From a virus, in IMG/VR virus record IMGVR_UViG_3300021467_000003, positions 1 to 39,865 of that record: DNA of 39,865 nt. One strand, given 5' to 3'. Below, one piece after another: positions 9,347 through 32,559 of this stretch. A model generated the notes under the pieces. That model made no database searches. It was not told where the DNA came from and worked only from the letters and a program-made list of their open reading frames with translations. The position numbers were made by a program, and so were the translations under genes. Numbering within the stretch: position 1 is the stretch's first letter; the number at the start of each line of letters is the position of its first letter.

Positions 9347-9347
9347 A

Positions 9348-9572: not shown

Positions 9573-9600
9573 TTTTTCATCACTCCAAAATAATTCTTCT

Positions 9601-9632
9601 CAGCATATATAAACTTTACGTATACATAATGT
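9601..9632 (-). promoter_or_regulatory. Candidate promoter of the exit cassette
   Basis: In the 67-base gap between the papain-like and holin-like genes, minus-strand TTTATATATGC (about 9603-9613) resembles an archaeal TATA box, some 35 bases before the ATG at 9572. Upstream of it the inverted repeat ATACA...TGTAT brackets TAATG. This could give the holin and protease genes timing separate from the tail genes. Confidence 0.4.
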
Positions 9633-9639
9633 GTATTAT

Positions 9640-10398
9640 TCATATTCTTATACTCCAAGCATCCCACCAAGGAACTAACTCTAAGTATTCGTAAGGCAGC
9701 CACGCCCTGCCGAACTTACCCCAAGCCGTCCTCCAACTATTCTGAATAAGGAAAGCCTTCTTCTTATCATCATAACCTATGATAGCAACGGCATGACCCC
9801 CCACAGACTTGTCATTATCAGGTAAAGGAACATCTTCGTCTCTGAGCATAACAAAGTTCTTCCAGACTGGTATTCCGAGCAGAACAGGATGATAACCTGC
9901 TAATGACGCCTTAACATCCTCAATTTCGCTTAATCTTAAATACTCTTTTATACGCCAGAACTTAGCAAAGCTATCAGCGAATATTCCAGGCTTATAATTA
10001 GGCATGTAATCAATGTAAGGCATAAGCTTCTCAGGACAAACACCAACTTTGTGCATGGCTTTGCAAGCATCCCTGAGATAACTCCCTTTGTCTTTCGGGA
10101 ACAACCCGTTAAGCTTCCTGCTATGATAATAATTATGCTGTTCGCTACCATCAATCCACCAATACTTGCCATGCCTTATTTTTCTTTCCATCTCAAAAAC
10201 GAGTATGGCGGCGTGAGCAGTACAACTATTCATACCACCTTGGTTTTTAATGTTGCTCGCATAATTTTTCAAGCTAATTCTTGGCGAAAGAGTCAGCCCA
10301 GAGAAAACATGGTCTCTCTTGTCCTTTCGGTCTTTCTTTAAACCAAGTCTTATCTTGCTTTTCGTTATAATCCTGTGTTCTTTCTCAAAGCCGAACAT
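9640..10398 (-). CDS. Papain-family (C1) cysteine protease, 252 aa
   Basis: The catalytic core is complete: Q53 and C59 in IKNQGGMNSCTAHA, H202 in GGHAVAIIGYDD and N220 in LIQNSWRTAWGKFG. There is no signal peptide and only a short N-terminal extension, so there is no long propeptide. Known C1 enzymes in tailed viruses are thought to act on envelope proteins or in virion entry. Here the position after the fibre gene and before the holin fits either a tail-associated entry protease or an egress enzyme. GGTGATAACTA precedes the ATG, which overlaps the fibre stop (TAATG). Confidence 0.9.
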   Translation of the reverse strand: MFGFEKEHRIITKSKIRLGLKKDRKDKRDHVFSGLTLSPRISLKNYASNIKNQGGMNSCTAHAAILVFEMERKIRHGKYWWIDGSEQHNYYHSRKLNGLFPKDKGSYLRDACKAMHKVGVCPEKLMPYIDYMPNYKPGIFADSFAKFWRIKEYLRLSEIEDVKASLAGYHPVLLGIPVWKNFVMLRDEDVPLPDNDKSVGGHAVAIIGYDDKKKAFLIQNSWRTAWGKFGRAWLPYEYLELVPWWDAWSIRI

Positions 10399-11372
10399 TA
10401 GTTATCACCTGCTGTTAAAGGTATATAATGACAATTCTTAATAATAATTATTTCATCACTTGCCACTGTGCTTGTAAGTTTAATTCTTGTCGCATATTTT
10501 TGCTGAGCGCTTGTATTAATATATGCGATGCTGTTCGTGGCTATGGTATAATTATTTCCGTTATCAGCACTAAAACTTTCAGTCACTGTTGTGGTTTCAT
10601 CTCCTTGTTTTATTCTAAAATAATAATACCTACAAGTAACGGTGTCTCCACCACCCGGCCAACTACTCTGTAATCTAAAATAATAATTCCCTGATAAACT
10701 GCTTATATCAACCACGCTTGAAAACACCCCATCTATATAAACAGTTGCGAGTTTATTTGTATCATCCACCCATACTTCAAAAGAGTGTGTTTGGCTACTC
10801 GGATTACCCACACCTGTATAACTTTTCAAAGTAACTTGTCCGCTTGTTGTGCCTAATAAATAAAGATAATAATTACCCGCACCACTACTACCAGAAACAG
10901 ACCAGTAAGCTTTAAACATGAATTTTTTATCTCCAGACCAGCCATTACTATTATTATCAGCATCCAAATTTACATTAGCGGTATTATCACTTGCTTGGCA
11001 ATAATCACTTGTCTCAGTCTCATTAGCACTCCCTGTGAATTTTGTTGTGTCAAAACTACTATCATCACACTCATCATAAATGGTGTAAATATCATATTGG
11101 AATTTTAAGAAAGCCATATTATATTTTTTATCGAAGTTCCCACCCGCCTGTCCTGGCATTTCAAGAACCACACTTGCATTACTCCCATAATAATAGTTCT
11201 CATCAGTATCATAAGTAAGATTTGTTTTTGTGCTTGCTTGGTCACTACTAAAATCAAAACTCACACTCCTATCAGCAACTTCATTTATAAGAGCTGTTGC
11301 GCTAAGTCTAAAATTATTCATTACTTCATCTGCATCAGGCAAATTCCCATTACTTATTTCTGTCCACACCAT
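10398..11372 (-). CDS. Tail fibre protein with concanavalin-like domain, 324 aa
   Basis: The N-terminal 40 residues (MVWTEISNGNLPDADEVMNNF) resemble tail-attachment segments of phage fibres. The middle contains a jelly-roll pattern typical of laminin-G/concanavalin-like lectins (FEVWVDDTNKLATVYIDG, then NYYFRLQSSW). A final beta region follows. It probably binds host-surface glycans. No signal peptide is present, as expected for a virion protein assembled in the cytoplasm. GAGGTGTG precedes the ATG. Confidence 0.7.
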   Translation of the reverse strand: MVWTEISNGNLPDADEVMNNFRLSATALINEVADRSVSFDFSSDQASTKTNLTYDTDENYYYGSNASVVLEMPGQAGGNFDKKYNMAFLKFQYDIYTIYDECDDSSFDTTKFTGSANETETSDYCQASDNTANVNLDADNNSNGWSGDKKFMFKAYWSVSGSSGAGNYYLYLLGTTSGQVTLKSYTGVGNPSSQTHSFEVWVDDTNKLATVYIDGVFSSVVDISSLSGNYYFRLQSSWPGGGDTVTCRYYYFRIKQGDETTTVTESFSADNGNNYTIATNSIAYINTSAQQKYATRIKLTSTVASDEIIIIKNCHYIPLTAGDN

Positions 11373-12114: not shown

Positions 12115-12639
12115 TCATATCACCGTTAAGTTCCACACGATGCTCGTGTTAAAAGTGTTGTTCAGTACAGCGTTATTGTAGTCTCCGAAACAACTCACAT
12201 TCTTAGTCTCGTTGATTGTTAGGTTCATGAAGTCTTGGAAGCTCGTTGTAAGAGTTAAACTCGGACTGCCCGTAATATTATCATTCCCCACTATTAACCT
12301 TTGCACGTATGCAGTGCTGTTCGCAGTTGCTCTCACCCTGACCGTTATGTTCCTCGTGCCGTTATTTGTAAGCCTGTAACAAGGAGTAGTATTGCTCTGA
12401 CCGTAAGCACTCGTATTATACTGAGTGAAAGTCTGTGTTATGAAAGCCGTGAAGTTCGTATCCAATAAGCTTAGGTTTAAGTTGCTTATGTTCATAGGAT
12501 AATAAATCTCTGATATTTCTTGGCTTGTGTTAAGGCTTCCGTTCCCGCTGCTTACCCCCAGCAATTCTGGTTTTGGCTTACAAGAGATTATAAACAAGAC
12601 TAATATAATAAATGTTACAAAAATAATTGTTTTTCTCAA
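12115..12639 (-). CDS. Exported sequon-rich protein with lipobox-like site, 174 aa
   Basis: The hydrophobic N-terminus ends in LFIISCKP, which resembles a lipobox with C20. The mature part has about sixteen N-x-S/T sequons by eye and only two further cysteines. It starts with TTG, overlapping the hub gene stop (TTGA), after AGGTGG. The product would be anchored outside the membrane and heavily N-glycosylated if the host has an oligosaccharyltransferase. It lies among tail genes, where exported proteins are unexpected. The function is unknown; surface exclusion or adhesion are options. Confidence 0.7.
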   Translation of the reverse strand: MRKTIIFVTFIILVLFIISCKPKPELLGVSSGNGSLNTSQEISEIYYPMNISNLNLSLLDTNFTAFITQTFTQYNTSAYGQSNTTPCYRLTNNGTRNITVRVRATANSTAYVQRLIVGNDNITGSPSLTLTTSFQDFMNLTINETKNVSCFGDYNNAVLNNTFNTSIVWNLTVI

Positions 12640-17933: not shown

Positions 17934-18350
17934 TTATCCGAACTGCTCCTTTATTATCTGATTTATTTTCTCCTGATTATAAAGCACTCTCCTAATCGGT
18001 GCGAACGGCGCCATGCCCTTAGGTAAAGACGCTCTTTCTTCTCTTGACAAATCCTTCTTCTTAATCGGAGTATCTGGGAAGTTGTCAAGCCCGTAAAGGT
18101 CGAAGTATTCGAAAGTCCCGTATTCCAAGTATTTCGCATAATAAACATCATTATCAATGTTTAACTCTCCGTCATTATCAACGTAATGATGGAACCCCCT
18201 AATATATCTACCACTTATATATAATCCGAGCTTTAATGCCTCGTCCTGTATAGCATTAACTATTCCCTCACCCAAGAGGAATAATACTTTCTTCCTGAAC
18301 TCAGGCCAGTTAATTATCTCATAAGTCCGTCCTTTATAGTTCAACAACAT
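17934..18350 (-). CDS. HK97 gp10-like neck / tail completion protein, 138 aa
   Basis: The sequence carries the family pattern ALKLGLYISGRY... followed by YYAKYLEYGTF and PKGMAPFAPIRR near the end. Such proteins bind at the head-tail neck. I took the ATG at 18350; an in-frame ATG-like start at 18491 would add 47 residues, including a hydrophobic stretch, and overlap the previous gene by 44 bases. Neither start has a convincing ribosome site. The 97 bases before 18350 hold a small GGGTTT/AAACCC hairpin. Confidence 0.75.
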   Translation of the reverse strand: MLLNYKGRTYEIINWPEFRKKVLFLLGEGIVNAIQDEALKLGLYISGRYIRGFHHYVDNDGELNIDNDVYYAKYLEYGTFEYFDLYGLDNFPDTPIKKKDLSREERASLPKGMAPFAPIRRVLYNQEKINQIIKEQFG

Positions 18351-18447
18351 TTTCAATGGGTTTCTTCTTATTATTAAAAACCCAATCAGCAGGGGAAGAA
18401 GAAACTCAAGACCCCTGCCGAATGGGAAAAAAGAGGTGAGTGAACAT

Positions 18448-18876
18448 TCACGTAATAGTCTCTTGTGTTCTCTTTTTACATCTGAAAACATAACACACAG
18501 CCACGCCCTTGACTATGTCAACACTAAGCCTCTCAACCACAACCCAAGCATCATAAGTCCCAGCCGTGCTGCCTTCAATAATAATGCTCACATCAGGCGT
18601 TATAAGGCTGGCTTGAGACTCCTCGGCGCTCACATACAAGACTCCTTCTCCGTGCTCAATCCACCCTGCTTCTATGAGCTTCTTATCAATATTAGTACCA
18701 TACTGTAAGTCCCCGACAAAAGTGTTATCGCTCGTGCTCCTATTGGTTACTTGTCCCTCAGTATTAACCGTCTCAGTTACTTTCCTATGAGTAAATGTTT
18801 TGCCGAACTTATCATGCAAGTCCCTCATATACTCCCTGAACCTCACACCGTCAGGGTCGCTTCTTGTCTTAACCAT
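18448..18876 (-). CDS. Head closure (stopper) protein, 142 aa
   Basis: A helical N-terminus is followed by a small beta barrel (TFVGDLQYGTN, GVLYVSAEES, VSIIIEGSTAGTYDAWVVVERL). This size and order, placed directly after the connector and before the gp10-like neck gene, match the head-closure protein that seals the capsid after packaging. AGGTAA lies upstream of the ATG. The assignment is from fold pattern and synteny. Confidence 0.65.
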   Translation of the reverse strand: MVKTRSDPDGVRFREYMRDLHDKFGKTFTHRKVTETVNTEGQVTNRSTSDNTFVGDLQYGTNIDKKLIEAGWIEHGEGVLYVSAEESQASLITPDVSIIIEGSTAGTYDAWVVVERLSVDIVKGVAVCYVFRCKKRTQETIT

Positions 18877-18878
18877 TA

Positions 18879-20234
18879 TTAATTACCTGCTATGTCCATC
18901 CTTCTGCCGAGCATACTAATAAGCTCTTCTATCTCGGCTTTTAACTGCTTAACCACTTCTGCAATGTTAACATAAACTTCTCCGACAGTCACACTCTTGC
19001 TTCCAAGGGTGAAGCTTGTCTCATCATCATAACTGCCTCCTGTCATAGCCACAACGCACTGCAAAGCAGCAAGCAGAGTTTCAAGGTCAACACCAAGATT
19101 ATAGTCTTTATCGTTGCTCGTAACACCAGCTGTGTACTTAACCCTTATATTCTTAACACCATCAGGAATACTCTGAGTTATGAAACTAAGACGTCCTTCT
19201 TTCGTCCACTGAACATTACGTATGCTTATCTGATTACTCACAACCCTGTCCGTGTCAGGGTATATCTCCCAGAGAACAGGAGCTGTCCCGAAACTACCAC
19301 CGCTAAGCCTTGCTCTCACCCAATAATAATCCCCTAAACCATTAACCGTGTTTTGTTCCCAGTCAGCAGGCCAGTCCCAATAAACATTACCATCAGCAAG
19401 GAACTTATCAGCATTCGTAACACTCGCAGTAACATTGCTTAGGCTCGCCCATGTGCTACCATTATAATACTCCCATGTGATTGCGAGGCTACCCCCATCA
19501 GTCCCGCTGGTTTGAAGTCTTATCCAGCAACCCATGAAAGGATAGCCCAGAGCCAAGTATAATGCGTCATTACTCGCAGGGCTGCTATTGAAAGGATAAA
19601 AAGTCGTGTTCGGGTCTTCTGCGTCGCTTTGCTCATCAGTATAACTTGTTCCGCTCGCATCATAGACCTGAACCTCGCTGAAAGTATTCTCATTCCTATC
19701 AAGGAACCATACTTCCTCAACGCTTGTAACAGGGAACTCGTCAAGCTGAATATAATCATACTTTTCCCTTATCTCGCTGAAAGGCCTGTCCGTTCTCGGA
19801 TAAGAGTCTGCTTTGTAACCATCAAAGTATTTTGTGAATGTCGTGCTACTCCAAACCCTGCCTGTTATCTCCCTAAGCCTCTCATCAGCGATGATTATGA
19901 AATTGTTTATGATACTATCATTTAAGGGGCTGTCATTAGCTAAGTAAGTGTAAGAAGCATAAAGAACGTCTGTTCCGAGAGCCGTGACACCAGTGTCTGT
20001 TAAGAGTATCCGCCCGCTGTCCTTATCAATGGTGTAATGAGTGGTTTCTGTCAAGCTGGTCATGTCATTGCTGCCGCTCGGAGCATGATACAAGCTATAA
20101 GTCCCAGCAATCACTTTATCATGGTCTAAGTCAAAATCTTTATTATTATTATCGCCTGTCCCAACGTTTTCATCTATTGCTTGCAAGCCTATCCCAGCTC
20201 TCTGAACAACCTTCGCAGTAGTACTTAATACCAT
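18879..20234 (-). CDS. Head-tail adaptor with inserted surface domains, 451 aa
   Basis: The C-terminal helices (DLETLLAALQCVVAMTGG, VVKQLKAEIEELISMLG) and a segment near IINNFIIIADERLREITG suggest a connector adaptor of the gp15/gp6 type, normally 100-150 residues. It is enlarged by an N-terminal beta module (GTYSLYHAPSG...THYTIDKDSGRILL) and a central domain (AITWEYYNGSTWASLSN, then YYWVRARLSGGSFG) seen in fibre or baseplate proteins. AGGAGGT eight bases before 20234 fixes the start; a TTG at 20297 lacks this. The extra domains may decorate the neck. Confidence 0.6.
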   Translation of the reverse strand: MVLSTTAKVVQRAGIGLQAIDENVGTGDNNNKDFDLDHDKVIAGTYSLYHAPSGSNDMTSLTETTHYTIDKDSGRILLTDTGVTALGTDVLYASYTYLANDSPLNDSIINNFIIIADERLREITGRVWSSTTFTKYFDGYKADSYPRTDRPFSEIREKYDYIQLDEFPVTSVEEVWFLDRNENTFSEVQVYDASGTSYTDEQSDAEDPNTTFYPFNSSPASNDALYLALGYPFMGCWIRLQTSGTDGGSLAITWEYYNGSTWASLSNVTASVTNADKFLADGNVYWDWPADWEQNTVNGLGDYYWVRARLSGGSFGTAPVLWEIYPDTDRVVSNQISIRNVQWTKEGRLSFITQSIPDGVKNIRVKYTAGVTSNDKDYNLGVDLETLLAALQCVVAMTGGSYDDETSFTLGSKSVTVGEVYVNIAEVVKQLKAEIEELISMLGRRMDIAGN

Positions 20235-20344
20235 TCTAAAAACCTCCTGAAAGAGCAGAAAATCATACTTATCATTCTCTCTTTTGGCTCTTGCCAATTC
20301 CTCCTATTCCTTTCTTTGCTTTCGCCTCTTGGCAAAATGGGAAG

Positions 20345-20392: not shown

Positions 20393-21334
20393 TTATCGGT
20401 ATCCGCACACCACGTTAACCTTCACGCTCGTGCTGTTCAAGCTCACATCATCAACCCTGAGAGCGAACCTCTTGGTGCTGCTCCAATAAGGCTTGTCAAA
20501 GCTTATCATGTCATAATCCGTGGCATTATTCACATACCATGCGTCGCCCATAATATTATCCGTGCTTGCCTGCGAGCCATCAGTTGCGCTCACAACATAA
20601 TCCCCTTTCCAAAGACCTATTCTTTTCAAGCCTCCGAGTTCCAAGAATTGCAACTTCTTAATAAAGGATTGTGTTGAGCTCTCCTGGACAGGAGTGCAGT
20701 TAACAGGCACCTTGTTATACCAGGAATAATTAATCCCGACAGGCCAACTCTCATTGTAATAAGTATAATTAGCACTGACATTCACACCATTATATGGGCT
20801 GCTGTCATTAGTAAGTATTATGTTGCCAGTAGTATAAGTGACTGTGTAATCACCGCTCGGAATAACTGCTCCGCTCGTAGTATTAAATAACACAACACTA
20901 TCTTCTTTTATGCCTACATCGTTATAAGTGAGGTTGTCTCCTCCAGAAGCGTTTGTTAGGAGAAGATTCGTCTCGTTAACCACGCTTACCTCCTTGTAAG
21001 CATTCAGGGTTATGTTGCCTGCTTGGTAATCCGCTGAGTAATTACCTGAGCCGAGACTTGTTCCTGTATGCACATCAAACACGACCACGTCATACACGTC
21101 ATCATGACCGAGCTCTGTTACATTACCATAACCAAGCGTATAGGTTTCGTTCGTTACGGATGTGCCATTATAAAGGGTTGCGCTCGCAACAGTCCAGTAT
21201 TCCTTGGCAGCCTTCGCAGTGAAGTATTCCCGCTGATAATCACTCCACCCGAAAATCGCTGCTTGAGCATTAGCGGATGATAATAATACCAGCAAGAAAA
21301 TAAGACCTGCCAATAATAAGTCTTTTATTCTCAT
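20393..21334 (-). CDS. Exported sequon-rich beta protein, 313 aa
   Basis: A signal peptide spans residues 1-25 (IKDLLLAGLIFLLVLLSSANA). The mature part holds at least two copies of a beta module ending in Y-x-V/A-D/T-Y-x-x-GNI-x-L (GNYSADYQAGNITL and GDYTVTYTTGNIIL). Many N-x-S/T sequons are present. The ATG at 21334 has AGGGTG upstream; a GTG at 21346 is the alternative. It lies between decoration-type and adaptor genes, so it may be a surface partner of the virion or a secreted protein. No enzyme motif is seen. Confidence 0.7.
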   Translation of the reverse strand: MRIKDLLLAGLIFLLVLLSSANAQAAIFGWSDYQREYFTAKAAKEYWTVASATLYNGTSVTNETYTLGYGNVTELGHDDVYDVVVFDVHTGTSLGSGNYSADYQAGNITLNAYKEVSVVNETNLLLTNASGGDNLTYNDVGIKEDSVVLFNTTSGAVIPSGDYTVTYTTGNIILTNDSSPYNGVNVSANYTYYNESWPVGINYSWYNKVPVNCTPVQESSTQSFIKKLQFLELGGLKRIGLWKGDYVVSATDGSQASTDNIMGDAWYVNNATDYDMISFDKPYWSSTKRFALRVDDVSLNSTSVKVNVVCGYR

Positions 21335-21350
21335 AATCCTATTCACCCTT

Positions 21351-21719
21351 TTATGAACTGCTTAAAGCTACGCTGCCAATGTTCTCTACAATCACGAATC
21401 TCGTGGCGCTCACACCGAACAATACCAGCGTCTCGTACTGAGCATTAAAAGTCGCAATATCATTCGTCCCGTCAAAAGTCCCAGCTGTCAAGGTAACAGT
21501 ATGTCCTTCTGTCCCGCCATCACTCTGAGTGATAACCAGGAACTTGCCTTTCCTCGGCGCTGCTATCGTCATGCTAAGCGCGCTACTACTATTATGTAAC
21601 TCGATAAAAGTATAGTCTTGGTCTATACTCCCATCAGAAGTGTACCTCTTAGCTGTGAACTTCACTCCTTTTTTAAAATCCCATTCTCTATTCTCAAGCT
21701 GACTAATTCCGTGTGCCAT
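21351..21719 (-). CDS. Head decoration or beta-sandwich virion protein, 122 aa
   Basis: The product has no export signal and is beta-rich (YTFIELHNSSSALSMTIA, KGKFLVITQSDGG, ARFVIVEN). Position two genes after the capsid protein suggests a capsid decoration or fibre-base protein. AGGAGGTG precedes the ATG at 21719, ruling out a slightly longer GTG start. Family unknown. Confidence 0.6.
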   Translation of the reverse strand: MAHGISQLENREWDFKKGVKFTAKRYTSDGSIDQDYTFIELHNSSSALSMTIAAPRKGKFLVITQSDGGTEGHTVTLTAGTFDGTNDIATFNAQYETLVLFGVSATRFVIVENIGSVALSSS

Positions 21720-21793
21720 GATAGACACCTCCTATGTGTTCTTCCTCCTAAAAAAATAAGGGTAAAAAAAAATAAAATAAAAATTTTTTTTGT

Positions 21794-22120
21794 TTATCCG
21801 AGGTCGGAGTCTCCACCAGTACTCTCCCTGCTTGTGAATACTACAAGGACATCTCTCCTCTTATTATCAGTGCTCCCACCAATAGTTACTTTGTCAGGAG
21901 TCGTGGTGCTCCCAGTCCATTCCATTGGTTCGCTCGCACCAGTCCCTGTCGGGTCTTGTATTCCTGTAGCGAAGATAACATTCACATCAAAACCTATCAG
22001 GTCATCCATTGTGAAATAATCCCCGTCATCAGCAGTAGCCGCTGTCTTCACAACCGCCATTCCGAAACCCCCACTAATAGTTTTCGCTACCAGTGTGCAT
22101 CCATCTGTTACATCTGCCAT
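21794..22120 (-). CDS. Small capsid decoration candidate, 108 aa
   Basis: Gly-, Thr- and Asp-rich with short beta strands (GFGMAVVKTAATADDGDYF, VNVIFATGIQD). It follows the major capsid gene by 13 bases and has GAGGTGAA before the ATG. Phage decoration proteins of this size commonly sit here. No membrane segment or cysteine cluster is seen. An A-rich stretch on the plus strand (T-rich on the message) follows the stop at 21730-21790. Confidence 0.6.
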   Translation of the reverse strand: MADVTDGCTLVAKTISGGFGMAVVKTAATADDGDYFTMDDLIGFDVNVIFATGIQDPTGTGASEPMEWTGSTTTPDKVTIGGSTDNKRRDVLVVFTSRESTGGDSDLG

Positions 22121-22133
22121 TTTTTCACCTCAC

Positions 22134-23201
22134 TCATAATATACCATACATCTGGCTCATGCAACCCTCAAAAGTCACCACGAGGGCTTCATAAACCTTC
22201 AGCATGTACTTAACACTATCGTTGAGACTTGGCAACTCTTGGAATGTTATATCCTGTAACACTGCCATGAAGATGTATCTCGGGTCAAGGAATAATATCC
22301 TCCTGCTACCGCTTGTGGTTGGCATGAACTGGCTTCTGATAAAGTTAACACCGTCAAAGCTGAAGCTCCCAGGTATTCCGAAAGGCAGGTTCTCAGCTGG
22401 TGGTGCTGGTTGCCTCTGGAAATCCATGAGCAAGCCTTTGATATAGTTGTGTGTGGCTGCGTCTGTCACTGCGAGTGTTATCCTTCCCTTTGCGTTGTAA
22501 CAAGTGGCGAGCTCAGACCTTATATCTGCCAGTGTCGGATAAGCGCTGCTTTTGTCTGTGGTATTAGTCGTAATAGATTTTATTAATCCATTAAACTCTG
22601 TTGCGTATGTTGAGACATCACCATTAATAATGGTGTCTTCCTCAAGCTCTATCAAAGCCTGCGTCTTAACCTGCAGGTCAAGAGCGCTTGCGTCAATAAA
22701 GCCTCTCATAGCAGCAATCGCTGGGCCTGAGAGACTTCCCACACTATAACCATACTTCATGGTCACGCTTCCTCTGCTGTAAGTGTCAACATCCTCTGGT
22801 AGGGGTGCGTCCTCGCTTCTCCAATGAGCTCCGCCCTTAGCTGTCAGCCTATTATAATCATAGGTCTTTCCCCTCACAGCTCTCCTCGGGATTAATGCTC
22901 TGATTGGAGTCTCGTATCTGGTTCTGTCAACTATTTCTGGGTCAACATAAACAGGTATGAGTGCTGTTCCTGCTGTCCCGCTTCCTCCTGTCGCTGTGCT
23001 TATGCTCGGCCCTGCTTTCTGTAATCCTTCAAGTAATGCTCGTCCTATTTGTTCTCTCTTGTCAATCTTGTTCCAAGGGTCATAATAAACCTCTTCATGA
23101 GTTACTGCTCCGCCGAAGGCTTTCTCAAAAACAGCTTCTGCGCTTTTGCTGTAATCAGGGTCTTCCAAGTGCACGTCCTTATTAAAATATGTTGCTACCA
23201 T
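22134..23201 (-). CDS. Major capsid protein, HK97 fold, 355 aa
   Basis: The order of elements follows HK97-type capsid proteins: an N-terminal helical arm (about residues 1-65), the segment TALIPVYVDPEIVDRTRYETPIR, an E-loop-like region with a Gly/Arg-rich stretch (about 105-150), spine helix (LQVKTQALIELEEDTIING) and C-terminal strands (SGSRRILFLDPRYIFMAV...YEALVVTFEG). It lies directly after the protease/scaffold gene. GGAGGT is 11 bases upstream. No long delta domain is obvious outside the neighbouring protease gene. Confidence 0.9.
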   Translation of the reverse strand: MVATYFNKDVHLEDPDYSKSAEAVFEKAFGGAVTHEEVYYDPWNKIDKREQIGRALLEGLQKAGPSISTATGGSGTAGTALIPVYVDPEIVDRTRYETPIRALIPRRAVRGKTYDYNRLTAKGGAHWRSEDAPLPEDVDTYSRGSVTMKYGYSVGSLSGPAIAAMRGFIDASALDLQVKTQALIELEEDTIINGDVSTYATEFNGLIKSITTNTTDKSSAYPTLADIRSELATCYNAKGRITLAVTDAATHNYIKGLLMDFQRQPAPPAENLPFGIPGSFSFDGVNFIRSQFMPTTSGSRRILFLDPRYIFMAVLQDITFQELPSLNDSVKYMLKVYEALVVTFEGCMSQMYGIL

Positions 23202-23210
23202 TTTCTGTCC

Positions 23211-24209
23211 TTACCTCCATACTCTTTTTTGAACTTTTATAAAGTTCGCTACTGTTGGTTTCAAATTTTTGACTTCTGTCGTCTCAGTCTCCGCGTGTGG
23301 AAGCTTGTTAAGCACTTCCTCCCTCTTAACAGATTTGGGTTCTTCTACGGGTTTATTCTCTGCTTTGGGCTCTGCTGGTGCTGGTTCAGAAGCTGGTTCT
23401 GGTGCTGGCTCAGCAGGCTTAGGCTCTGCTTTTGGCTCTTCCTTAGGCTCAGCCTCTTCATTAGGCTTTGCCGGAGGAGCTTCTGTAGTCTCTTCCTGTT
23501 TCTTAATCTCTGCAATTGTCTCTGCCACTATTTTCTTTATATCTTCCTCTTTCATTGTATCTTCCTCCGATTTATTTTTTAAGGAAAATGATTTCGCAAT
23601 CCTCATAGCCATTGCGTGCTGATTCGCTGGTATGCCTACGAAATCAGCGCTTATTATCTCACCGTCAGTCCACCGCTTATAAGTCTTGCCGTCAATACTT
23701 ACTTCGTCATGAGAGTAAGGGATTGCGCTTATGCTCACTCCCATCTTTGCTCCTTCATCAATCATGTTCTTAAGCACTTTCGCTTGTGGGTTGCTTAGAA
23801 AAAACTTGGGTTTCGCTACGAGAGCGTGATGTTCGGGGCTTGTCTCCACTATCTGCTTATCAACCCAGTTGCATACGAGGTTGAGAGCTTTGTTCTCATG
23901 GTCTATTAGTCCTGGAAGCCAGTTCTTCATAACGGCTTTTTCCATGAAGCTCTTGGCTACTATCTCGTTATCTCGGTCTATGCTCGTATCACTCAAGACA
24001 GCTAAGTAATCATCATCGGTTTCTCCTGTTTTGAGTATGGGTGCGTAAAGAAATCTTTTATGAATCATATCCTTGTTGTTAACATCTTTTTTTCCAACAG
24101 TCGCTTGGCAGACAGCCCAAGCGCTTTCTTCTTTTGTTTTGCCTTTTCTCGGCTTAAAATTAGGGTCGTTCATGAGATGTTCAACACAACGGTCAACAGC
24201 TGCGGGCAT
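23211..24209 (-). CDS. Prohead protease fused to a scaffold-like tail, 332 aa
   Basis: Residues 50-210 form an HK97-type (S78) prohead protease: H104 in GLIDHENKA and S159 in MGVSISAIP fit the catalytic pair. Residues 1-40 carry the small motif EESAWAVCQATVG common in phage proteins. After residue 215 a Pro/Glu/Lys/Ala repeat-like stretch (PKEEPKAEPKPAEPAPE) ends in a helical segment and likely serves as internal scaffold, cleaved during maturation. AAGGTGAT precedes the ATG at 24209; an in-frame GTG at 24218 lies within this site. Confidence 0.85.
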   Translation of the reverse strand: MPAAVDRCVEHLMNDPNFKPRKGKTKEESAWAVCQATVGKKDVNNKDMIHKRFLYAPILKTGETDDDYLAVLSDTSIDRDNEIVAKSFMEKAVMKNWLPGLIDHENKALNLVCNWVDKQIVETSPEHHALVAKPKFFLSNPQAKVLKNMIDEGAKMGVSISAIPYSHDEVSIDGKTYKRWTDGEIISADFVGIPANQHAMAMRIAKSFSLKNKSEEDTMKEEDIKKIVAETIAEIKKQEETTEAPPAKPNEEAEPKEEPKAEPKPAEPAPEPASEPAPAEPKAENKPVEEPKSVKREEVLNKLPHAETETTEVKNLKPTVANFIKVQKRVWR

Positions 24210-24268
24210 GCATATCACCTTCGTTATTAAGAGTATTACCTTATAATACTATCTTATAATATAACTCC

Positions 24269-24287
24269 TATATTAATATACCTTTTT
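24269..24287 (-). promoter_or_regulatory. Candidate promoter of the capsid genes
   Basis: The 78-base AT-rich gap before the protease gene contains the palindrome TATATTAATATA (24269-24280), about 60 bases before the ATG at 24209, a suitable distance for an archaeal TATA box with a leader. Further TATTATAAG elements lie nearer to the gene. Confidence 0.35.
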
Positions 24288-24533
24288 TTATAGTTCTCTC
24301 TTAATACGCATACCTTTATCGCAGTAAGTGTTCCTGAAATTACGTTCGTCAATACTATCAGCGAAGTCTCTTTTTAGCTGAACAGCTTTAAGCAAGGTCG
24401 TGTCAAGGTCAACTAAGTAAACCACTATTTTTTCTTCGTCCTCGAACCATTTCATACGCCACTTACCTTTCTCTTCTGAAACAACTTGTCTTCTGTTCTC
24501 AAACTGGTCTATCTCCACTTCGAATACCTGCAT
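24288..24533 (-). CDS. Hypothetical protein, 81 aa
   Basis: A small soluble protein with mixed strands and helices (MQVFEVEIDQFENRRQ, IVVYLVDLDTTLLKAVQL). It is the last gene before the capsid promoter region, following the exported proteins. GGGGTGA precedes the ATG. It has no export signal, unlike its upstream neighbours. No family is recognised. Confidence 0.7.
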   Translation of the reverse strand: MQVFEVEIDQFENRRQVVSEEKGKWRMKWFEDEEKIVVYLVDLDTTLLKAVQLKRDFADSIDERNFRNTYCDKGMRIKREL

Positions 24534-24548
24534 TGTTATTCACCCCTA

Positions 24549-26417
24549 TTATGTCATGTTGAAATAGCAATTATTATCAGTAAAAATAATCCCTGTAGTA
24601 TTAATAAAAAGATTATCAATAATAACCATCGCACTACAATTCACCTTGTCCGTGCTCGTACCATTCTCAAAACTTAGGTTGTAACCGTTAATGTTACAGT
24701 TAGTTGTTATGTTGCAGTGGTCAGGCATATTAATCCTCCAATTACCAGCAGGACTCGGACAAGAGCAAGTATCTGTTGGTGCGGTTACAGTATAATTTGC
24801 ATAAATCGAATATGACCTATTCACAAGACTTGGAACCCAAGGGTCTGGGAATACTCCATAATTCTCAGCATCGCCCCCTCCACTTTCATTCGTATTAGAA
24901 TCATATTTTATTGCTAAACCACTAACGCCTGTAATTTCTGACCAAACAACAAGCCAATAATTAGTAGAAGCAATTAAATTTGGTCCATCTGAAAAATTGT
25001 GTGTATGCCAATCAAAGTCAAATTGACCAAAATCCGTTCTTTCGATTGTTTCATTAACAAATGAGTTGTCTGATTGTAGATAAATCCCACATTTAGTTTT
25101 TTCATTTGCTGTTACCAAATAACCATACCAAGACATACTATCTGCAGTTCCTGCTTCTGTAATTGGATAATAAGAACCCACAATAACTTCAACAGCAGGC
25201 GCCGTTAACCAAGTTCCTCCAATACTTGTCTTACCAAAAGAAGGGTCAATAATAACAGGATATTTAGCAGTATCAAGCCATTTATCATCAATAGTAATTT
25301 CCAATGTATTTTTTATTATATTCAATTCTCCCCAAACAGTATCATTATTTGCATCCATAATTAATGGTCTATAAATATGAAATGCTTTTCCTGTTTTATA
25401 TTTATTATTTGATTTAGAAGAATGGTAAACAGCATAAGAACCAACAACATTCTCTGGTCTATGGCTTCCTTCACAATCTGTAGCATTACAAGTAGCATTA
25501 GGCTCGCTAAAACCATTCTCAAGGTAAAGTGGTGATTGATAATAGAATTCTAAGTCAGAATAATTAATATTAAAAAGTAATTTATTACTTAAAGGTTTCT
25601 CTTTAAAAACTATTTCAAATTCAAAGCCGCCATTCTCAGAGACATTCCATAGAGGATAAAGATTAACATCAAAAATATCATACTCCTGAACAAGCTTATT
25701 ATCAATCATACTTTTTTTTTCAGTATGAGAAGCTTGTAATTCAACATCCAAGAAATCTTCCCTGTCCCACGTCCATAATTTCATTTGTGGTTTGGAAGCA
25801 TCAACTATCACATCAAGCTTGTCAAAACCTTTATCATTCCAATACTCGGTTGATTTAAGTTCTGCTTTATTTAATTTATTCCATTTCTTCTGCTTTCCAT
25901 CATAACTGAATTCAGTATCATTATAATTAATTTTATAGCATCTGCCTTTCTCACAATGAGTTTCTGTTGAAGAAGTATAAGTTATTATTTTTTCTTCTTT
26001 AATACTGGCATTATTATAAGCATAAGCAACACTCCCACCGAAATCAAACATAAGAGTATGCTTTCCAGAAGATAGAACATCAACCACGAAATGGCTTTCA
26101 GAAAAACAATAATAACTCTCAAACAAAATATATTCATCAGTAATAACTGAAGGCATAATAATATTATCTCCGCACTTCAAAGAAGTAAAATCTATATCCT
26201 CACCAAAAAAAGTATTATTAAAAGGAATAATCTTCAAATCTCCTCTTCCAACAACAGAAAAATTGGTAGTCCAGGGGTCACCCACAAAAGGATAACTCTG
26301 AATGTTGATTATGTGAATGAAGAATGATGTTCCAAACAAGATTCCTATGATAGTTAATACTACTGAGATGCTCTTATGTTTCAAAACCCAGTTTTTTATA
26401 CATTCCCATTTCATCAT
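24549..26417 (-). CDS. Membrane-anchored sequon-rich surface protein, 622 aa
   Basis: Residues 18-40 form one membrane anchor or uncleaved signal (SISVVLTIIGILFGTSFFI), leaving about 580 residues outside. A module around residues 300-420 contains GSYAVYHSSKSNNKYKTGKA, FHIYRPLI and WLDTAKYPVIIDPSFG, which I recall as recurrent in surface proteins of uncultured archaea and their viruses. A beta sandwich follows (NYWLVVWSEITG). Sequons are dense toward the C-terminus. The DNA appears more AT-rich than neighbours, suggesting transfer. There is no ribosome site. Role unknown: adhesion or surface exclusion are possible. Confidence 0.7.
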   Translation of the reverse strand: MMKWECIKNWVLKHKSISVVLTIIGILFGTSFFIHIINIQSYPFVGDPWTTNFSVVGRGDLKIIPFNNTFFGEDIDFTSLKCGDNIIMPSVITDEYILFESYYCFSESHFVVDVLSSGKHTLMFDFGGSVAYAYNNASIKEEKIITYTSSTETHCEKGRCYKINYNDTEFSYDGKQKKWNKLNKAELKSTEYWNDKGFDKLDVIVDASKPQMKLWTWDREDFLDVELQASHTEKKSMIDNKLVQEYDIFDVNLYPLWNVSENGGFEFEIVFKEKPLSNKLLFNINYSDLEFYYQSPLYLENGFSEPNATCNATDCEGSHRPENVVGSYAVYHSSKSNNKYKTGKAFHIYRPLIMDANNDTVWGELNIIKNTLEITIDDKWLDTAKYPVIIDPSFGKTSIGGTWLTAPAVEVIVGSYYPITEAGTADSMSWYGYLVTANEKTKCGIYLQSDNSFVNETIERTDFGQFDFDWHTHNFSDGPNLIASTNYWLVVWSEITGVSGLAIKYDSNTNESGGGDAENYGVFPDPWVPSLVNRSYSIYANYTVTAPTDTCSCPSPAGNWRINMPDHCNITTNCNINGYNLSFENGTSTDKVNCSAMVIIDNLFINTTGIIFTDNNCYFNMT

Positions 26418-26421
26418 TCAT

Positions 26422-29301
26422 TTATCCACAATTACCTATCTTACCACCATTATCAAAAACTATACAATGAACAGTAGAAATATTATAAGTTGACAAATTA
26501 AAATTATCAGTGTTATCATCATCAAAAACATAAGCCTCAACCTGGTCTTCAGATAAATGAGTATCAGCATCAGTGCCACAACTTAAAAAACCATACTCGT
26601 CGGTGTCAATCGTATCACAATCAGTCAAGGAATCAAAGGAAATATAATCTGAAAGAAGAATAATAAAATCTCCTCTTGCTTCAATCGCCATACCAGGATA
26701 AAATTCTCTTCCACTACCTTCATCCAAATACCCACCTAACATCAAATATAATCCTTCCCATTCAGGATGTGCTTCCTCCCTAATATAACCCCCCGTATCA
26801 CCATCGTCAGTTTGAGCATCAAATAATAAGTAAGAACTATTAGACCATACATCTGCTGTGTCATTATATCCGTCACCAATAGTCAAATCACCAATTATTT
26901 CAAAAGTCGAAACAGGCGTGGTCGTATTAACACCAACCCTATTATTAGTATCATCAATAAATAATGCTCCACCAAAAGTGTAATTACCAGAAGCAGTATC
27001 ACCAGCATCATACAAGATATTGGGACAGCTCTGGTCAACACTACAATTACCGATGGTTGTGTCAATACTGCTAATATTAATCTCGTTACCACCACTAATA
27101 CTAATATTATCCCCGCTAAAACTAAGAGTCTGACTATCAGTATTATCCAAGTAAGTGTTATCAGCAAAAGACTTATTAAGCAAAGTAGCATCGCCTATCT
27201 GGTTGTTAAGCTCAGAGAAAGTATCAAGCTCACTCTCATACAATATGTTAGAACAACTATTACTCACACTACAATTACCAATAGTTGTATCATCCAAATA
27301 ATAACTCCCATCCTGTCCGTCCAGCTTGTCAGCATCCCATAAACTATCATCACTACAACCAGCCCAATCAGAACAACCATAAGTCGTGTCATCATCCCTC
27401 GCATCAATGGTTGAGTTAATGGTTGTCCAGTTCAATTCCAAAGTATTACTATTGTTTATGAAATCAGCCAAATCAATACCCCACCAAGTATTAGTATCTG
27501 TGTCTCTCGCATCAATAGTAGAGTTAAGTTCTGTTTCATTAACATTAAACTCCGTGCCACTAAGATACAAGTAACTCCCAGCACTATAAGTCGTATCACT
27601 ATCCCTACTATCAATAGTACTATTAAGCAAAGACTCATTCAAACAGAGACTACCAGTACAATTATAAAGATAATCATCACCAAGACCCCAAACAGTGTCA
27701 ACCGTGTAATCCCAGCTACTATTAAAAGACCTGATAGTATTGTTAAGCTTGGACTCATTAAAAAAAAGCGTTGAACTACTCAGATAAAGGTAAACATCAT
27801 TAACACTGGTAATTAATTTGTTCTGAATGTTACTCCAATTAATTTTTCCCAAGAACCAGCTATTCGTACTTGTAAGATTATAATCCCCTTGATTCCAGTT
27901 CTGTGTCAAGCCGTCATAAGACAAGTAATTACCCAAATCAGGCATAGCACCATGAGTCACCACACCACCCCTTATATCAATCCAAGCATCATCCCAACTA
28001 TTAGCGTCTCTCAAACCACAATAAACATAGGTCGGCACAGCCAAGTATTCATGCATAGAAGGCAAGGTATAAGAAATAGGATTATCAACTAAGTCTAAGC
28101 AATCACCAACATTATTATAAGTAGTATCCGTGGTTAGGGGAGCGAGCTGATACAGTCGTGTCGTGTTCTCCTCTCCAATAGTATAAATAACATACCTCCT
28201 ATACTTATTAGTAGGGCACTGTATTAAGTCCGTGGTATTATCACAATGAGTAAGGTTAATACCTGTCTGCTCAACATAACCCCAAGTTCCGTTAATATGG
28301 CTGACAAGACGAATACCATTAACACTGGAATTACGAGCCAGAGTGTTAACAAGGGTTTTCACATACAAATACTCCCCGCTATACTGGTATAATTCGGGGA
28401 AGACAGTGTTGAAATCCAAGTTCATACCTGAATGCACTCTGAGATGAGCTGTTCTGAAAATAACCTTTCTGGTCTTAATCGTTTCTTTGTTCTTCACAGT
28501 CGCTCCTTTCGACATCTCCACACTACCATTAACAGCGTAAGCATTAAAAATATCGGCTATCCCGCCAGGGCTCAAAGCTGTGGTTATGTAATTATTGAAA
28601 GATGTGTTCTTAACAGTGCAAGTATTGTCAACATAGAAAACAAGGTGAGAGTTCTCACTCAAAGTAATAGTATCAGAGGTTATGTTACAATACTTAACCA
28701 GATTATCAGTCCTTGCTAATCTCACTACCATATCAGGATAAGTGATGTTAAGACTGTTAATACTCAGATTAACATTCCCCTCACTATCAATATCACCGCT
28801 CCAGATAACACCACTACCAATACTACCATCCAAAGGCTGACCAGCATAATAACCAGAAATATTAAGGTTGCCTTGATTAGCGTAATCCAGGTAAGCTAAC
28901 GAGCCACAACTACCAGGAACACTACAATTACCAATAGTAGTGTCGGTTATTGTGCATAAGTCACTGGTGGCTCCGCTAATATTACCGCAAGGAATAACGA
29001 GCAAATCTTGTATGTCACTCGGAGCATCATAAGAATCCCAGTAATCAGAACTATTAACATCAAGACTCCCTTCGTTTACTCGCAACAAGTAAGTATTATT
29101 ACCCTTACTCTCATTCCAGCAAAGACTTCCAGTACAATTGTAGAGGTAATTGCTCCCTGTCAAGTTCCAAGCCACTCCTCCAGTGCCTGCTTCGTAATAG
29201 TCAAGCCCTTTCCAAACAAGAGGATTATACTTGTATTCTGCGCTTACATAGAACGAGCTAATAAGAAGAAATACAAAGATTAAAAAAGTTGTTTTTCTCA
29301 T
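26422..29301 (-). CDS. Exported fibre-like repeat protein, 959 aa
   Basis: Residues 1-21 form a signal peptide (FLIFVFLLISSFYVSA). Repeats include LYNCTGSLCWNES near the start and a close copy near the middle (LYNCTGSLCLNES), three DTTIGNCSV-x-x-SC units, and several ELNSTIDARDTDT units. The C-terminal third starts NRVGVNTTTPVSTFEIIG, a motif of trimeric tail-fibre heads. So it resembles a tail fibre but bears an export signal and many sequons. No ribosome site is seen. Recombination between repeats could vary its length. It may be a secreted or surface receptor-binding or exclusion protein. Confidence 0.7.
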   Translation of the reverse strand: MRKTTFLIFVFLLISSFYVSAEYKYNPLVWKGLDYYEAGTGGVAWNLTGSNYLYNCTGSLCWNESKGNNTYLLRVNEGSLDVNSSDYWDSYDAPSDIQDLLVIPCGNISGATSDLCTITDTTIGNCSVPGSCGSLAYLDYANQGNLNISGYYAGQPLDGSIGSGVIWSGDIDSEGNVNLSINSLNITYPDMVVRLARTDNLVKYCNITSDTITLSENSHLVFYVDNTCTVKNTSFNNYITTALSPGGIADIFNAYAVNGSVEMSKGATVKNKETIKTRKVIFRTAHLRVHSGMNLDFNTVFPELYQYSGEYLYVKTLVNTLARNSSVNGIRLVSHINGTWGYVEQTGINLTHCDNTTDLIQCPTNKYRRYVIYTIGEENTTRLYQLAPLTTDTTYNNVGDCLDLVDNPISYTLPSMHEYLAVPTYVYCGLRDANSWDDAWIDIRGGVVTHGAMPDLGNYLSYDGLTQNWNQGDYNLTSTNSWFLGKINWSNIQNKLITSVNDVYLYLSSSTLFFNESKLNNTIRSFNSSWDYTVDTVWGLGDDYLYNCTGSLCLNESLLNSTIDSRDSDTTYSAGSYLYLSGTEFNVNETELNSTIDARDTDTNTWWGIDLADFINNSNTLELNWTTINSTIDARDDDTTYGCSDWAGCSDDSLWDADKLDGQDGSYYLDDTTIGNCSVSNSCSNILYESELDTFSELNNQIGDATLLNKSFADNTYLDNTDSQTLSFSGDNISISGGNEINISSIDTTIGNCSVDQSCPNILYDAGDTASGNYTFGGALFIDDTNNRVGVNTTTPVSTFEIIGDLTIGDGYNDTADVWSNSSYLLFDAQTDDGDTGGYIREEAHPEWEGLYLMLGGYLDEGSGREFYPGMAIEARGDFIILLSDYISFDSLTDCDTIDTDEYGFLSCGTDADTHLSEDQVEAYVFDDDNTDNFNLSTYNISTVHCIVFDNGGKIGNCG

Positions 29302-29309
29302 ATTGCATA

Positions 29310-29654
29310 TTAGCTATACGTGTAATTCGTCCTGTTACTCCACACAAAGTCGAACTCGTTGCTCCCCTGAGCCCAACTAACATTAATTACGTTGCTCCCG
29401 TTATAGCCGAGTTTCTGTATTCTCCAACCAGTCTCATTCTCAAGAGTCCCTGCCTGCGCCTCACCCATATAAACAGGGTTACTTCCTGAGTAATCTATCC
29501 TCGTAGTCCAAGCATTAATTTCTATTAGATAAACAGGCTTAGCCTTCTGACCCTGATAATCATACTTCTCAGTAACACTCGTACTACCAGTAAACAAGAC
29601 ACTACTACAAATAAGCAGTAATGCGAATAATATTATGAAAATAGTTCTCCTCAT
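29310..29654 (-). CDS. Exported small phage-type structural protein, 114 aa
   Basis: After a hydrophobic leader (residues 3-20, FIILFALLLICSSVLFTG) comes a domain (INAWTTRIDYSGSNPVYMGE ... ETGWRIQKLGYNGSNV) of a kind I recall from short structural proteins in many tailed phages. The appearance of a leader before such a domain is unusual. GAGGAG lies seven bases before the ATG at 29654; an ATG at 29660 overlaps the endonuclease stop. Several sequons are present. Confidence 0.65.
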   Translation of the reverse strand: MRRTIFIILFALLLICSSVLFTGSTSVTEKYDYQGQKAKPVYLIEINAWTTRIDYSGSNPVYMGEAQAGTLENETGWRIQKLGYNGSNVINVSWAQGSNEFDFVWSNRTNYTYS

Positions 29655-29656
29655 AC

Positions 29657-30370
29657 TCATTCTCCTCTCACAAATCTTATGGTTAATTTTTTTTGTTCTA
29701 TTTGTGTTACTTTACTATGACATCTACAACAAAGCGTTATCAAATTATTAATTTTATGTTCTTTACAAATCCGATATGGTATTAAATGATGAACTTGAAG
29801 CGGTTGATTATATATTTGATAACTTTGCTCTTGTGTTATTTTACATGCTTGACATGTAAAATTATCTCTGATAAGTATTAATTTTTTTATTCTTAACCAT
29901 TCTTTTCTCTTAATATATCTATTTTTTAATAAACCATCATCTTTATAATTCCAAGGTTTTTTATTAAACATAGGATTTTTAAAACCTTTTTTTGAATTAC
30001 TAATTTTTAATCTCGCTATTTTCGTTCTTGCAGGATTCTTTTCAACAAGATAAGCATTATTTCTTTTATAATGTCCTTTCTCTCTGAGTGTTTGGTGTGC
30101 CTTCTCAGTTATCTGTTGACCATTTCTAATTCCAACTTTATACTCATAATTCATTTGACAAGAAGTAGAACAATATTTCTGCCTAACACCGTTATGCCAA
30201 GTTCTTGTTTGTTGCTGAGTTAATTCTTTTCCACAATACAAACAATAAATAACAGGATTTCTTCTCTTAGGGGTGTGTTCACCAAGGTATTTTCCAGAAC
30301 AAAACCTGTTACAAAATATTTTATTCCTTTTATTCTCTATTTTCTTATTACAATATTTACAAGTTTTCAT
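29657..30370 (-). CDS. HNH endonuclease, homing type, 237 aa
   Basis: Two zinc knuckles precede the nuclease: C4, C7, C20, C24 and C43, C46, C67, C71. A NUMOD3-like segment (KKGFKNPMFNKKPW) follows. The HNH core has C173, C176, HH194-195 (LQVHHLIPY), N209 and C214/C217/H218. It is strongly AT-rich and basic. The ATG overlaps the portal stop (ATGA), and the stop overlaps the next start, so it is inserted cleanly between genes. Such free-standing enzymes spread by cutting alleles lacking them. A packaging-linked HNH is an alternative, but those usually sit next to terminase. Confidence 0.85.
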   Translation of the reverse strand: MKTCKYCNKKIENKRNKIFCNRFCSGKYLGEHTPKRRNPVIYCLYCGKELTQQQTRTWHNGVRQKYCSTSCQMNYEYKVGIRNGQQITEKAHQTLREKGHYKRNNAYLVEKNPARTKIARLKISNSKKGFKNPMFNKKPWNYKDDGLLKNRYIKRKEWLRIKKLILIRDNFTCQACKITQEQSYQIYNQPLQVHHLIPYRICKEHKINNLITLCCRCHSKVTQIEQKKLTIRFVRGE

Positions 30371-32559
30371 TCTCTTATAAATTTTATATATGACCTACAA
30401 TTGCAATGTGCGGGTGGAATCATTATTTCTCTCCCGTCAGGGCTGTTAAAAGGCTCATCAAACTCCCTTACTTGTCCGTGCATACCCCTACATATCTCTG
30501 TCGTCCTATCATCAAGGAAAGCCACATACTTCTTCTTACCTTTCACCCCACTATCCTTATAAGCCTGGAGCTTGCCCTCGTTAACGAAACGAGCACTCTC
30601 AGTCCGAGCTATCCTAAGAGCCTGACCTTCCTTAGCCTGCTTAAATATTTTTTGCACTCTTTCTTTAAGCTCGGATTCGCCTTCTTTCTTCATCATACCT
30701 TCCTTTATGCTGTTATAAATTTTTTTCTGCATCTCAGCCGCCACTCCTTTTATACCATGCCACTTCTTGCCGTCAGGCAATGTATACCCGTCAAACTGTT
30801 GCTTAGCATAAGCCTCTGCTTTGGTATTAAAAACCTGGCTCGCACCAATATCTGTGTCTAATTCTTCCTCTGCTGATTCTAATCCTTTCTTCATAGTCTT
30901 AGCCACGGCACGTTTAATCAAGTTATAGAACTCAACCGTGGTCATGCCCATAATCATTGTCCTAAGGAATTCTCCGAAGCTCTTAATAATAGTCGGCTCC
31001 TTGCTCTTGTGTATCTCCTTAACGGCTGCTAAGACTTTCTTCTCCCAATGGTCATACATCCTGACAATGAGGTCTCCGTAAGTCTCAACATCATACCACT
31101 CATCAATACCTGTTTGTCTTTTTGGTTTCTTCTTGGCTTTGTCAATGAAAATAAACTTCACCCCTCCTTTTTCTCCTCCTCTTCTTCGTTTATCTTCTTC
31201 ATCATCCTCTTCAACTTCTTCTTTTTGCTCAGCTTCCTCAACATTATCACCTCGTTCATTAAAAGGCAGGTTATTCATGAAAGCAAAAGGATTATCAGCG
31301 TACTCCGAGTCAAAAGGCGGAAGACCACGCTCAGCTCTCACCTCATTAATACTTCTTATCTTAGCCCTCACATCAGCGAGCTGCATCTCCTGGTCAATCT
31401 TTTCCTGTGCTGCGTCCCTCGGGAAATACTTAAACTGTAATGGTGTCCTCTTCTGCAAAGGCAAATCGTCCTCTCCGAGAATAGCGGGTATTATTATCCT
31501 ATTAATCTTCTTCTCTATCAGGTTCAAGTAAGGCAAGACGGCGTTCTTAACACTCACCCTGCTCTGTCCTTCCATTCCTGCCTTGAGAGCATCCTCATAA
31601 AAGCCTGCTTCTACAGGGCTCAGACCATAAACACCGAAAACAAGGTGCATATACCATTTTTGTCCTTTAAGCCATTCCATGTCCTTGTTGCTCATGCTTA
31701 TCTGGTCAATCTTATGATTTATCAAGTTATGCATGAGTATCTTATGAGGTTTTCCTTGGAACTTGTTCATCCAATCATCATAGAACTTCTGCAGGCTTTC
31801 CTTATTAGCGTTCGGCAAGCTCATAATAATGCTCGGAATAGCGTTGTTCAAGAAGAAGTCCTTGTTGTATCTCGTGCTCTGAATAAGCAGCTCTACTACT
31901 TGTTGAACGGCTTGTAAGGGGCTGAAACCATAAGGATTATATGTCCTGTTGTTCGTTTGGAAATAGCATATCTCGTCAACGTCAAAGCCTTTCGGGCTCG
32001 CTGCTGGGTTCTTAAAGCTGAACTGCCACCATTTAACTGGGAAGCCGTTAATATCCTGCTCTTTCAAAAAAGTGCTCGCATCATAAGGTAGTATTTCTAT
32101 AAGTTTTTTCTTGCCGTCAATGTTTTCCTTGTGCAGATACCATATGCCTGCGTCTATTTCTAACAAGTCGCTTAGCATGGGGTCAAGGATGTCGTTGAAA
32201 GTGGCGTCGGGTATCCTATTAGGGTGGTTTAAGAACTCCTTAACGTATTCTATCTGGTCTTTGTAAACATCCTCGTTCTGCTTCTCGCTTTCTTTGATAA
32301 TTATATCCCAGTCTGTCTGCTTAACCGTCTTCTTAATGGTGTTAGTGACCATCTGCACCCATGTGCTCTTAGCAAACTTTCTCAGGTCACTTATGTTAAT
32401 GTTTCTCGGAATGCCACGTATGGGGCTGTAATACCAGATAGGATAAACAGGTAGTTTGTCACTGCCTCTGCTTCGGGCTTCTGGCTGTAACAATAAGAAA
32501 TCCACGTCTTTAACGATAAAGGCATCCCTGACTTGCTTAAGCTTTTCTATGATATTCAT
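30367..32559 (-). CDS. Portal protein fused to MuF-like head morphogenesis domain, 730 aa
   Basis: Residues about 1-430 are portal-like (IIIKESEKQNED, YNPYGFSPLQAVQQVVELLI, WYMHLVFGVYGLSPVEAGFY). An acidic/basic linker at 440-490 leads to a helical region and a MuF-type domain at about 560-730: IARTESARFVNEGKLQAY, then FLDDRTTEICRGMHGQ and PPAHCNCRSYIKF. The portal forms the dodecameric DNA gate; MuF domains attach inside the head and can carry ejected cargo. Fusion of the two is known in some phages. No ribosome site is visible, but a TATA-like element lies upstream. It follows terminase by 73 bases. Confidence 0.85.
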   Translation of the reverse strand: MNIIEKLKQVRDAFIVKDVDFLLLQPEARSRGSDKLPVYPIWYYSPIRGIPRNINISDLRKFAKSTWVQMVTNTIKKTVKQTDWDIIIKESEKQNEDVYKDQIEYVKEFLNHPNRIPDATFNDILDPMLSDLLEIDAGIWYLHKENIDGKKKLIEILPYDASTFLKEQDINGFPVKWWQFSFKNPAASPKGFDVDEICYFQTNNRTYNPYGFSPLQAVQQVVELLIQSTRYNKDFFLNNAIPSIIMSLPNANKESLQKFYDDWMNKFQGKPHKILMHNLINHKIDQISMSNKDMEWLKGQKWYMHLVFGVYGLSPVEAGFYEDALKAGMEGQSRVSVKNAVLPYLNLIEKKINRIIIPAILGEDDLPLQKRTPLQFKYFPRDAAQEKIDQEMQLADVRAKIRSINEVRAERGLPPFDSEYADNPFAFMNNLPFNERGDNVEEAEQKEEVEEDDEEDKRRRGGEKGGVKFIFIDKAKKKPKRQTGIDEWYDVETYGDLIVRMYDHWEKKVLAAVKEIHKSKEPTIIKSFGEFLRTMIMGMTTVEFYNLIKRAVAKTMKKGLESAEEELDTDIGASQVFNTKAEAYAKQQFDGYTLPDGKKWHGIKGVAAEMQKKIYNSIKEGMMKKEGESELKERVQKIFKQAKEGQALRIARTESARFVNEGKLQAYKDSGVKGKKKYVAFLDDRTTEICRGMHGQVREFDEPFNSPDGREIMIPPAHCNCRSYIKFIRE

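Follow-up and report, generated by a model that had tools for sequence, protein, structure and literature searches.

Predicted exported, sequon-rich proteins encoded among the virion genes of a probable archaeal tailed virus

Signal-type N-termini and sequon excess within the virion gene block

Five open reading frames (ORFs) in the virion gene block of a 39,865-base IMG/VR virus record (the window, meaning the whole stretch of DNA analysed) combine a signal- or anchor-type N-terminus with a clear excess of N-x-S/T sequons, and their products are predicted to be exported, N-glycosylated proteins. In the reading that we favour, at a probability of roughly 50%, these proteins would be expressed late and shown on the infected cell, where they would serve exclusion or adhesion. 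The main genes of the window lie on the minus strand. PHROGs matches identified genes for the terminase (32633-34246), portal-MuF (30367-32559), head protease (23211-24218), HK97-type capsid (22134-23201), neck (17934-18491), and a tail protein (16165-17175), together with a weak PHROGs call for a connector (18879-20297), and this head, neck, and tail set therefore assigns the genome to a tailed virus. The gene at 12636-14231 was considered baseplate-type from its position. The genes for the 116-, 959-, and 622-aa proteins sit between the portal and the protease, that for the 317-aa protein sits between the capsid and the adaptor, and the 174-aa gene comes directly after the baseplate-type gene, which it overlaps by 4 nt. 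Ordinary cytoplasmic genes, encoding the capsid, the protease, and small proteins, are also located within 20393-29654.

Signals were called by a home-made hydropathy rule, which is crude and gives cleavage as a prediction, and the expected number of sequons was obtained by shuffling each ORF's own residues for the 53 ORFs of the window. By this rule, the five proteins to which a preliminary description of the sequence had assigned signal peptides or anchors all carry a positively charged stretch at the N-terminus, with a hydrophobic core behind it; two of them, listed there with 114 and 313 residues, are the 116- and 317-aa ORFs taken from later starts. The 116-aa protein (29310..29660, on the minus strand like the other four) has a signal-type N-terminus and 5 sequons against 1.7 expected (z 3.0). 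The 959-aa protein (26422..29301), which is rich in repeats and carries Cys pairs, has a signal with a YVSA-type end and 42 sequons for 17.9 expected (z 6.7), and the 622-aa protein (24549..26417), with an N-terminal anchor, has 20 for 8.6 (z 4.4). The 317-aa protein (20393..21346) opens with a signal-like N-terminus and contains 17 sequons (5.1 expected, z 5.9). The 174-aa protein (12115..12639), singled out earlier for its sequon density, has 17 against 5.2 expected (z 6.3) and a motif, FIISC, that is only lipobox-like; a lipobox is absent from the other four proteins. The lipoprotein-like 174-aa protein and the 622-aa protein are probably anchored in the membrane, and we propose that the 116-, 959-, and 317-aa proteins are cleaved or weakly anchored.

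When compared with the rest of the genome, as the preliminary description had suggested, the sequon excess proved to be confined to these five of the 53 ORFs (z 3.0-6.7), and z exceeded 2.5 in no other, including the capsid, portal, and terminase. Virion proteins rich in Ser/Thr or Asn, encoded at 10398, 16165, 17189, and 18879, gave z values of 0.0, -1.2, -0.3, and 0.7, respectively. Nine ORFs carry a strong hydrophobic segment at the N-terminus, and all five would be among them by chance with a probability of approximately 4e-5. A signal-bearing trypsin-like protease (8600-9346) has no sequon excess, and a signal alone is therefore insufficient to produce one. The first of the Ser/Thr-rich proteins (324 aa; 10398..11372, minus strand) has no signal and, from its position and composition alone, is a candidate for an ordinary cytoplasmic fibre; family searches with this protein gave no match. 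None of the five signal-bearing proteins could be assigned confidently to a family in Pfam, PHROGs, or NCBIfam, and AlphaFold single-sequence models had a mean pLDDT of 36 for the 317-aa protein and 33 for the 622-aa protein, values too low for the models to be used.

Related viruses and the probable host

Capsid-based searches resulted in approximately 100 related loci. In the non-redundant viral set, the 57 ORFs with a signal and a length of 120 aa or more contain 1,149 sequons against 546 expected (O/E 2.11), and the 694 signal-less ORFs contain 1,626 against 1,578. For the reversed motif S/T-x-N, the signal-bearing group shows no excess (1.02), and the preference for N-x-T over N-x-S is 1.46 in that group versus 1.10 in the signal-less one. 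Among signal-less ORFs rich in Asn, Ser, and Thr, the excess is smaller (O/E 1.32) and may in part reflect ORFs truncated at the N-terminus by a contig end, such as the copy of the 959-aa protein in L002. A signal-bearing, sequon-rich ORF is present in 14 of the 24 loci with at least 8 kb seen downstream of the capsid gene. Two loci, L027 and L073, encode signals without a clear sequon excess, and no signal-bearing, sequon-rich ORF was found in the well-known archaeal tailed viruses HFTV1, HSTV-1, and psiM2 or in the first 50 kb of a fourth, phiCh1.

Individual sites are also retained between near relatives. The L107 homologue of the 959-aa protein, with 86% identity across 559 residues, retains 25 of 26 sequons; the S/T position stays Ser or Thr in 25 of 25 sequons versus 68 of 80 positions elsewhere, with Ser-Thr exchanges occurring within sequons, and the Asn is kept in 25 of 26 sequons versus 29 of 32 elsewhere. 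The homologue in L002 keeps 15 of 16 sequons. Because the Asn counts are small, this retention is supportive rather than decisive.

Capsid relatives were located in two Woesearchaeota bins, one Nanoarchaeota bin, and one further archaeal bin, and another is encoded on a 4.6-kb contig in a WOR-3 bin. STT3 is encoded in all five bins. An archaeal host, as presumed in the preliminary description, is supported, and so is its capacity for N-glycosylation. The virus probably infects tiny Woesearchaeota-type archaea, a host assignment that is taken from relatives in bins that can be wrong. Some large exported proteins of bins G002 and G004 have a sequon excess of their own, up to 299 against 114 expected in an ORF of 4,956 residues. 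The combination of an export signal, sequons that appear to be under selection, and a host with an oligosaccharyltransferase is that of an N-glycosylated exported protein, and the viral products are predicted to belong to this category. Tailed proviruses of Woesearchaeales have been reported (PMC11705971), in a text in which neither "signal peptide" nor "glycos" occurs.

Domain composition and exchange among near relatives

A protein of the relative L004 that lacks a signal shares 33% identity with the C-terminal domain of the 116-aa protein. The L004 domain in turn shares 51% identity with a collagen-linked protein, again signal-less, encoded ahead of a large ORF in the viral contigs L163 and L164. 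The phage collection yielded no match to the 116-aa domain. Two regions of the 622-aa protein gave matches: residues 262-546 correspond to a protein of podovirus ctMEh928 that has no signal at its likely start (MKLKESAAGLLSRHD), and residues 34-138 to a domain found in large host ORFs that are themselves exported and sequon-rich. Some part of the 622-aa protein, mostly residues 34-138, was matched in 61 of the 343 genomes of the phylum searched, and its C-terminal stretch occurs in host surface proteins too. The sole neighbourhood of a host-domain carrier read gene by gene, on a 509-kb contig (L197), contains ABC-transporter-like and HAD-like neighbours and gave no viral match. A second carrier of the 34-138 domain, a 2,958-aa protein (L200:3958-12834), has Kelch repeats and a late membrane segment with DEAD/ResIII behind. 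The same arrangement has been described for SPEARE proteins (PMC6642349), in which a large adhesion region outside the cell is followed by a late membrane segment and a restriction-type domain inside it, and the 2,958-aa protein appears to be SPEARE-like. No membrane segment near the C-terminus and no DEAD/ResIII match were found in the viral exported ORFs; the five proteins would thus not be classed as SPEARE-like adhesins, with which only the 622-aa protein has a single domain in common.

A link to annotated tail fibres is provided by L027, whose capsid is 62% identical to that of the window. Its 1,294-aa protein opens with a clear signal, has a small sequon excess (25 versus 20.8 expected), and is 36% identical over 156 residues to the tail fibre of Pseudomonas phage Rollin (WNV50591) and 34% identical over 336 residues to that of MW202484 (UOF77672). 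These two fibres have neither a signal nor a sequon excess, whereas all five window proteins have a signal or anchor; location in the virion block and variable C-termini are features that phage tail fibres share with the window proteins. The mature N-terminus that follows the signal (PQGDINLR-like) is common to at least nine viral proteins, and its alignment matches 4 of the 343 host genomes, with the N-terminal part covered in only one of the four.

L188 encodes a signal-bearing protein of 1,602 aa that has 34% identity to the 959-aa protein in the latter's N-terminal half; neither the 959-aa nor the 317-aa protein matched the phage collection. A link of the 317-aa protein to a virion adaptor domain is weak and appears only after profile iteration, and IMG/VR scans with the 622- and 317-aa proteins returned no relative. 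CDTIDTD and VGIGT-type repeats were considered as a mark of tail fibres and rejected, as host chromosomal exported proteins have them. The L188 locus (G183:C21:1-20000, from an archaeal bin) encodes exported sequon-rich proteins along with short pilin-like hydrophobic proteins, gave no match to tailed-virus hallmark genes, and is possibly another mobile element.

In the neighbouring virion genes, near relatives L002, L107, and L108 share approximately 85-90% identity with the window. In place of the 622-aa protein, L002 encodes an unrelated 693-aa lipoprotein, carrying a lipobox, and L107 a different exported protein; the first ~600 residues of the 959-aa protein are conserved among near relatives, and the remainder differs. 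Such swapping would fit receptor-binding and exclusion proteins alike. The HNH endonuclease gene (29657..30370, minus strand, PHROGs HNH match) located between the portal and 116-aa genes is missing from L107 and L108, where the 116-aa gene has, at its start, a 4-nt overlap with the end of the portal gene. Family-wide, the upstream ORF lies within 30 nt of the start in 33 of 40 exported genes, and given this tight spacing the exported genes are probably translated with the virion genes.

Proposed display on the infected cell and alternative roles

From the signal-like N-termini, sequon enrichment and retention, homologies, operon position, and swapping seen in the sequence, we infer export, glycosylation, surface location, and function as follows. 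The five genes would be part of a late virion operon, and their products would be exported by the host Sec pathway, N-glycosylated by the host STT3/AglB at the outer membrane face, and displayed on the infected cell. Built from phage-type domains and, in the 622-aa protein, one host surface-protein domain, and swapped fast, they would most likely serve late remodelling of the infected-cell surface: masking of receptors, so that competing viruses are kept out and progeny do not re-adsorb, and/or cell-to-cell attachment. DPANN archaea are thought to adhere via surface proteins. This display is favoured because sequon excess is restricted to signal-bearing ORFs, with the reversed-motif control and the 25 of 26 sites kept; because STT3 is encoded in the five bins and some large exported host proteins have a like excess; because of the host surface domain of the 622-aa protein and the anchors, lipobox-like or uncleaved, of some members; and because of the tight coupling to virion genes and the swapping of whole proteins or C-termini. 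Against it, early exclusion would be poorly served by late expression, and the tail-fibre relative in L027 and the common viral mature N-terminus would fit a role in the virion.

The viral proteins resemble Woesearchaeota and Nanoarchaeota surface proteins in signal or anchor, sequons, the 34-138 domain, and repeat style, but are shorter, virus-encoded, and placed in a virion operon, and have phage domains as well. T5 Llp and TP-J34 Ltp are superinfection-exclusion lipoproteins of phages; the 174-aa protein likewise appears to be a virus-coded exported lipoprotein, whereas here the set is larger, heavily sequoned, and inside the virion operon. Tailed viruses are known to build their fibres in the cytoplasm, and fibre-type proteins on an archaeal secretory and glycosylation path would mean either that this rule is broken or that infected cells bear a virus-coded coat. 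The exported, sequon-enriched, and partly fibre-like character proposed in the preliminary description was upheld, and the cell coat and the joining to virions that it offered as roles are the two leading candidates.

A tentative second reading is that at least some of the proteins are true virion fibres, exported, glycosylated outside the membrane, and mounted during or after exit. The genes lie within the virion block and have C-termini that vary as in receptor-binding proteins, the signal-bearing L027 protein matches two annotated tail fibres, domains of signal-less virus proteins occur inside the 116- and 622-aa proteins, and the common mature N-terminus is rare in host genomes, as a docking segment would be. 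However, the 174- and 622-aa proteins look membrane-anchored and would be ill fitted to a lipid-free particle, and the signal-less 324-aa candidate fibre is encoded as well. Archaeal head-tailed viruses are described as lacking lipids and exiting by lysis, and HRTV-DL1 as unaffected by loss of N-glycosylation (PMC10384203). HFPV-1, SSV1, and SSV19 have virus-encoded spikes or coat proteins that receive host N-glycosylation, as proposed here, but these viruses have membranes or bud (PMC10384203), whereas the present virus encodes a tailed head and tail set. No precedent for exported fibre-type proteins in archaeal tailed viruses was found in the openly accessible literature, a scope that excludes most subscription papers. 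It is rather unlikely that, in this group, fibre-type proteins are exported, acquire their N-glycans outside the membrane, and are added to the virion while it exits or afterwards; if true, there would be an assembly step beyond the cytoplasm, and the particle could be disguised or directed by its host-like glycans and host surface domain.

Host-derived cargo (morons), in which captured surface adhesins would benefit the host or a long-lived infection and have no part in virion function, is improbable: the 622-aa protein does carry a domain of host surface proteins, and host exported proteins do have repeats like those of the 959-aa protein, but most of the genes lie within 30 nt of co-directional virion genes in many relatives and several products carry phage-type domains. 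It is very improbable that the proteins are cytoplasmic and the excess and signals a by-product of repeats and hydrophobic N-termini, since internal repeats in some proteins, the crude signal rule, and the signals without clear excess in L027 and L073 are outweighed by the composition-matched shuffles, the reversed-motif control, the near-expected signal-less ORFs, and the sequon retention. The findings also show exchange between these viruses and DPANN surface proteins, and the combined signal and sequon signature offers a handle for finding such viruses.

Other genes of the window were also noted. The trypsin-like protease with a signal-type N-terminus is encoded beside a papain-like protease (8600-10398), and the two are candidate enzymes for breaking down the S-layer during entry or lysis. 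The metallophosphoesterase gene at 6681-8453 contains an apparent intein at approximately residues 183-515, with a Cys start and a QN-S end, and ORFs of L038, L058, and L059 have inserts similar to the middle of its product. At 37487-37933, a 148-aa signal-less protein with 17 cysteines is encoded, in which a C-x-x-I-x-C-type motif repeats regularly.
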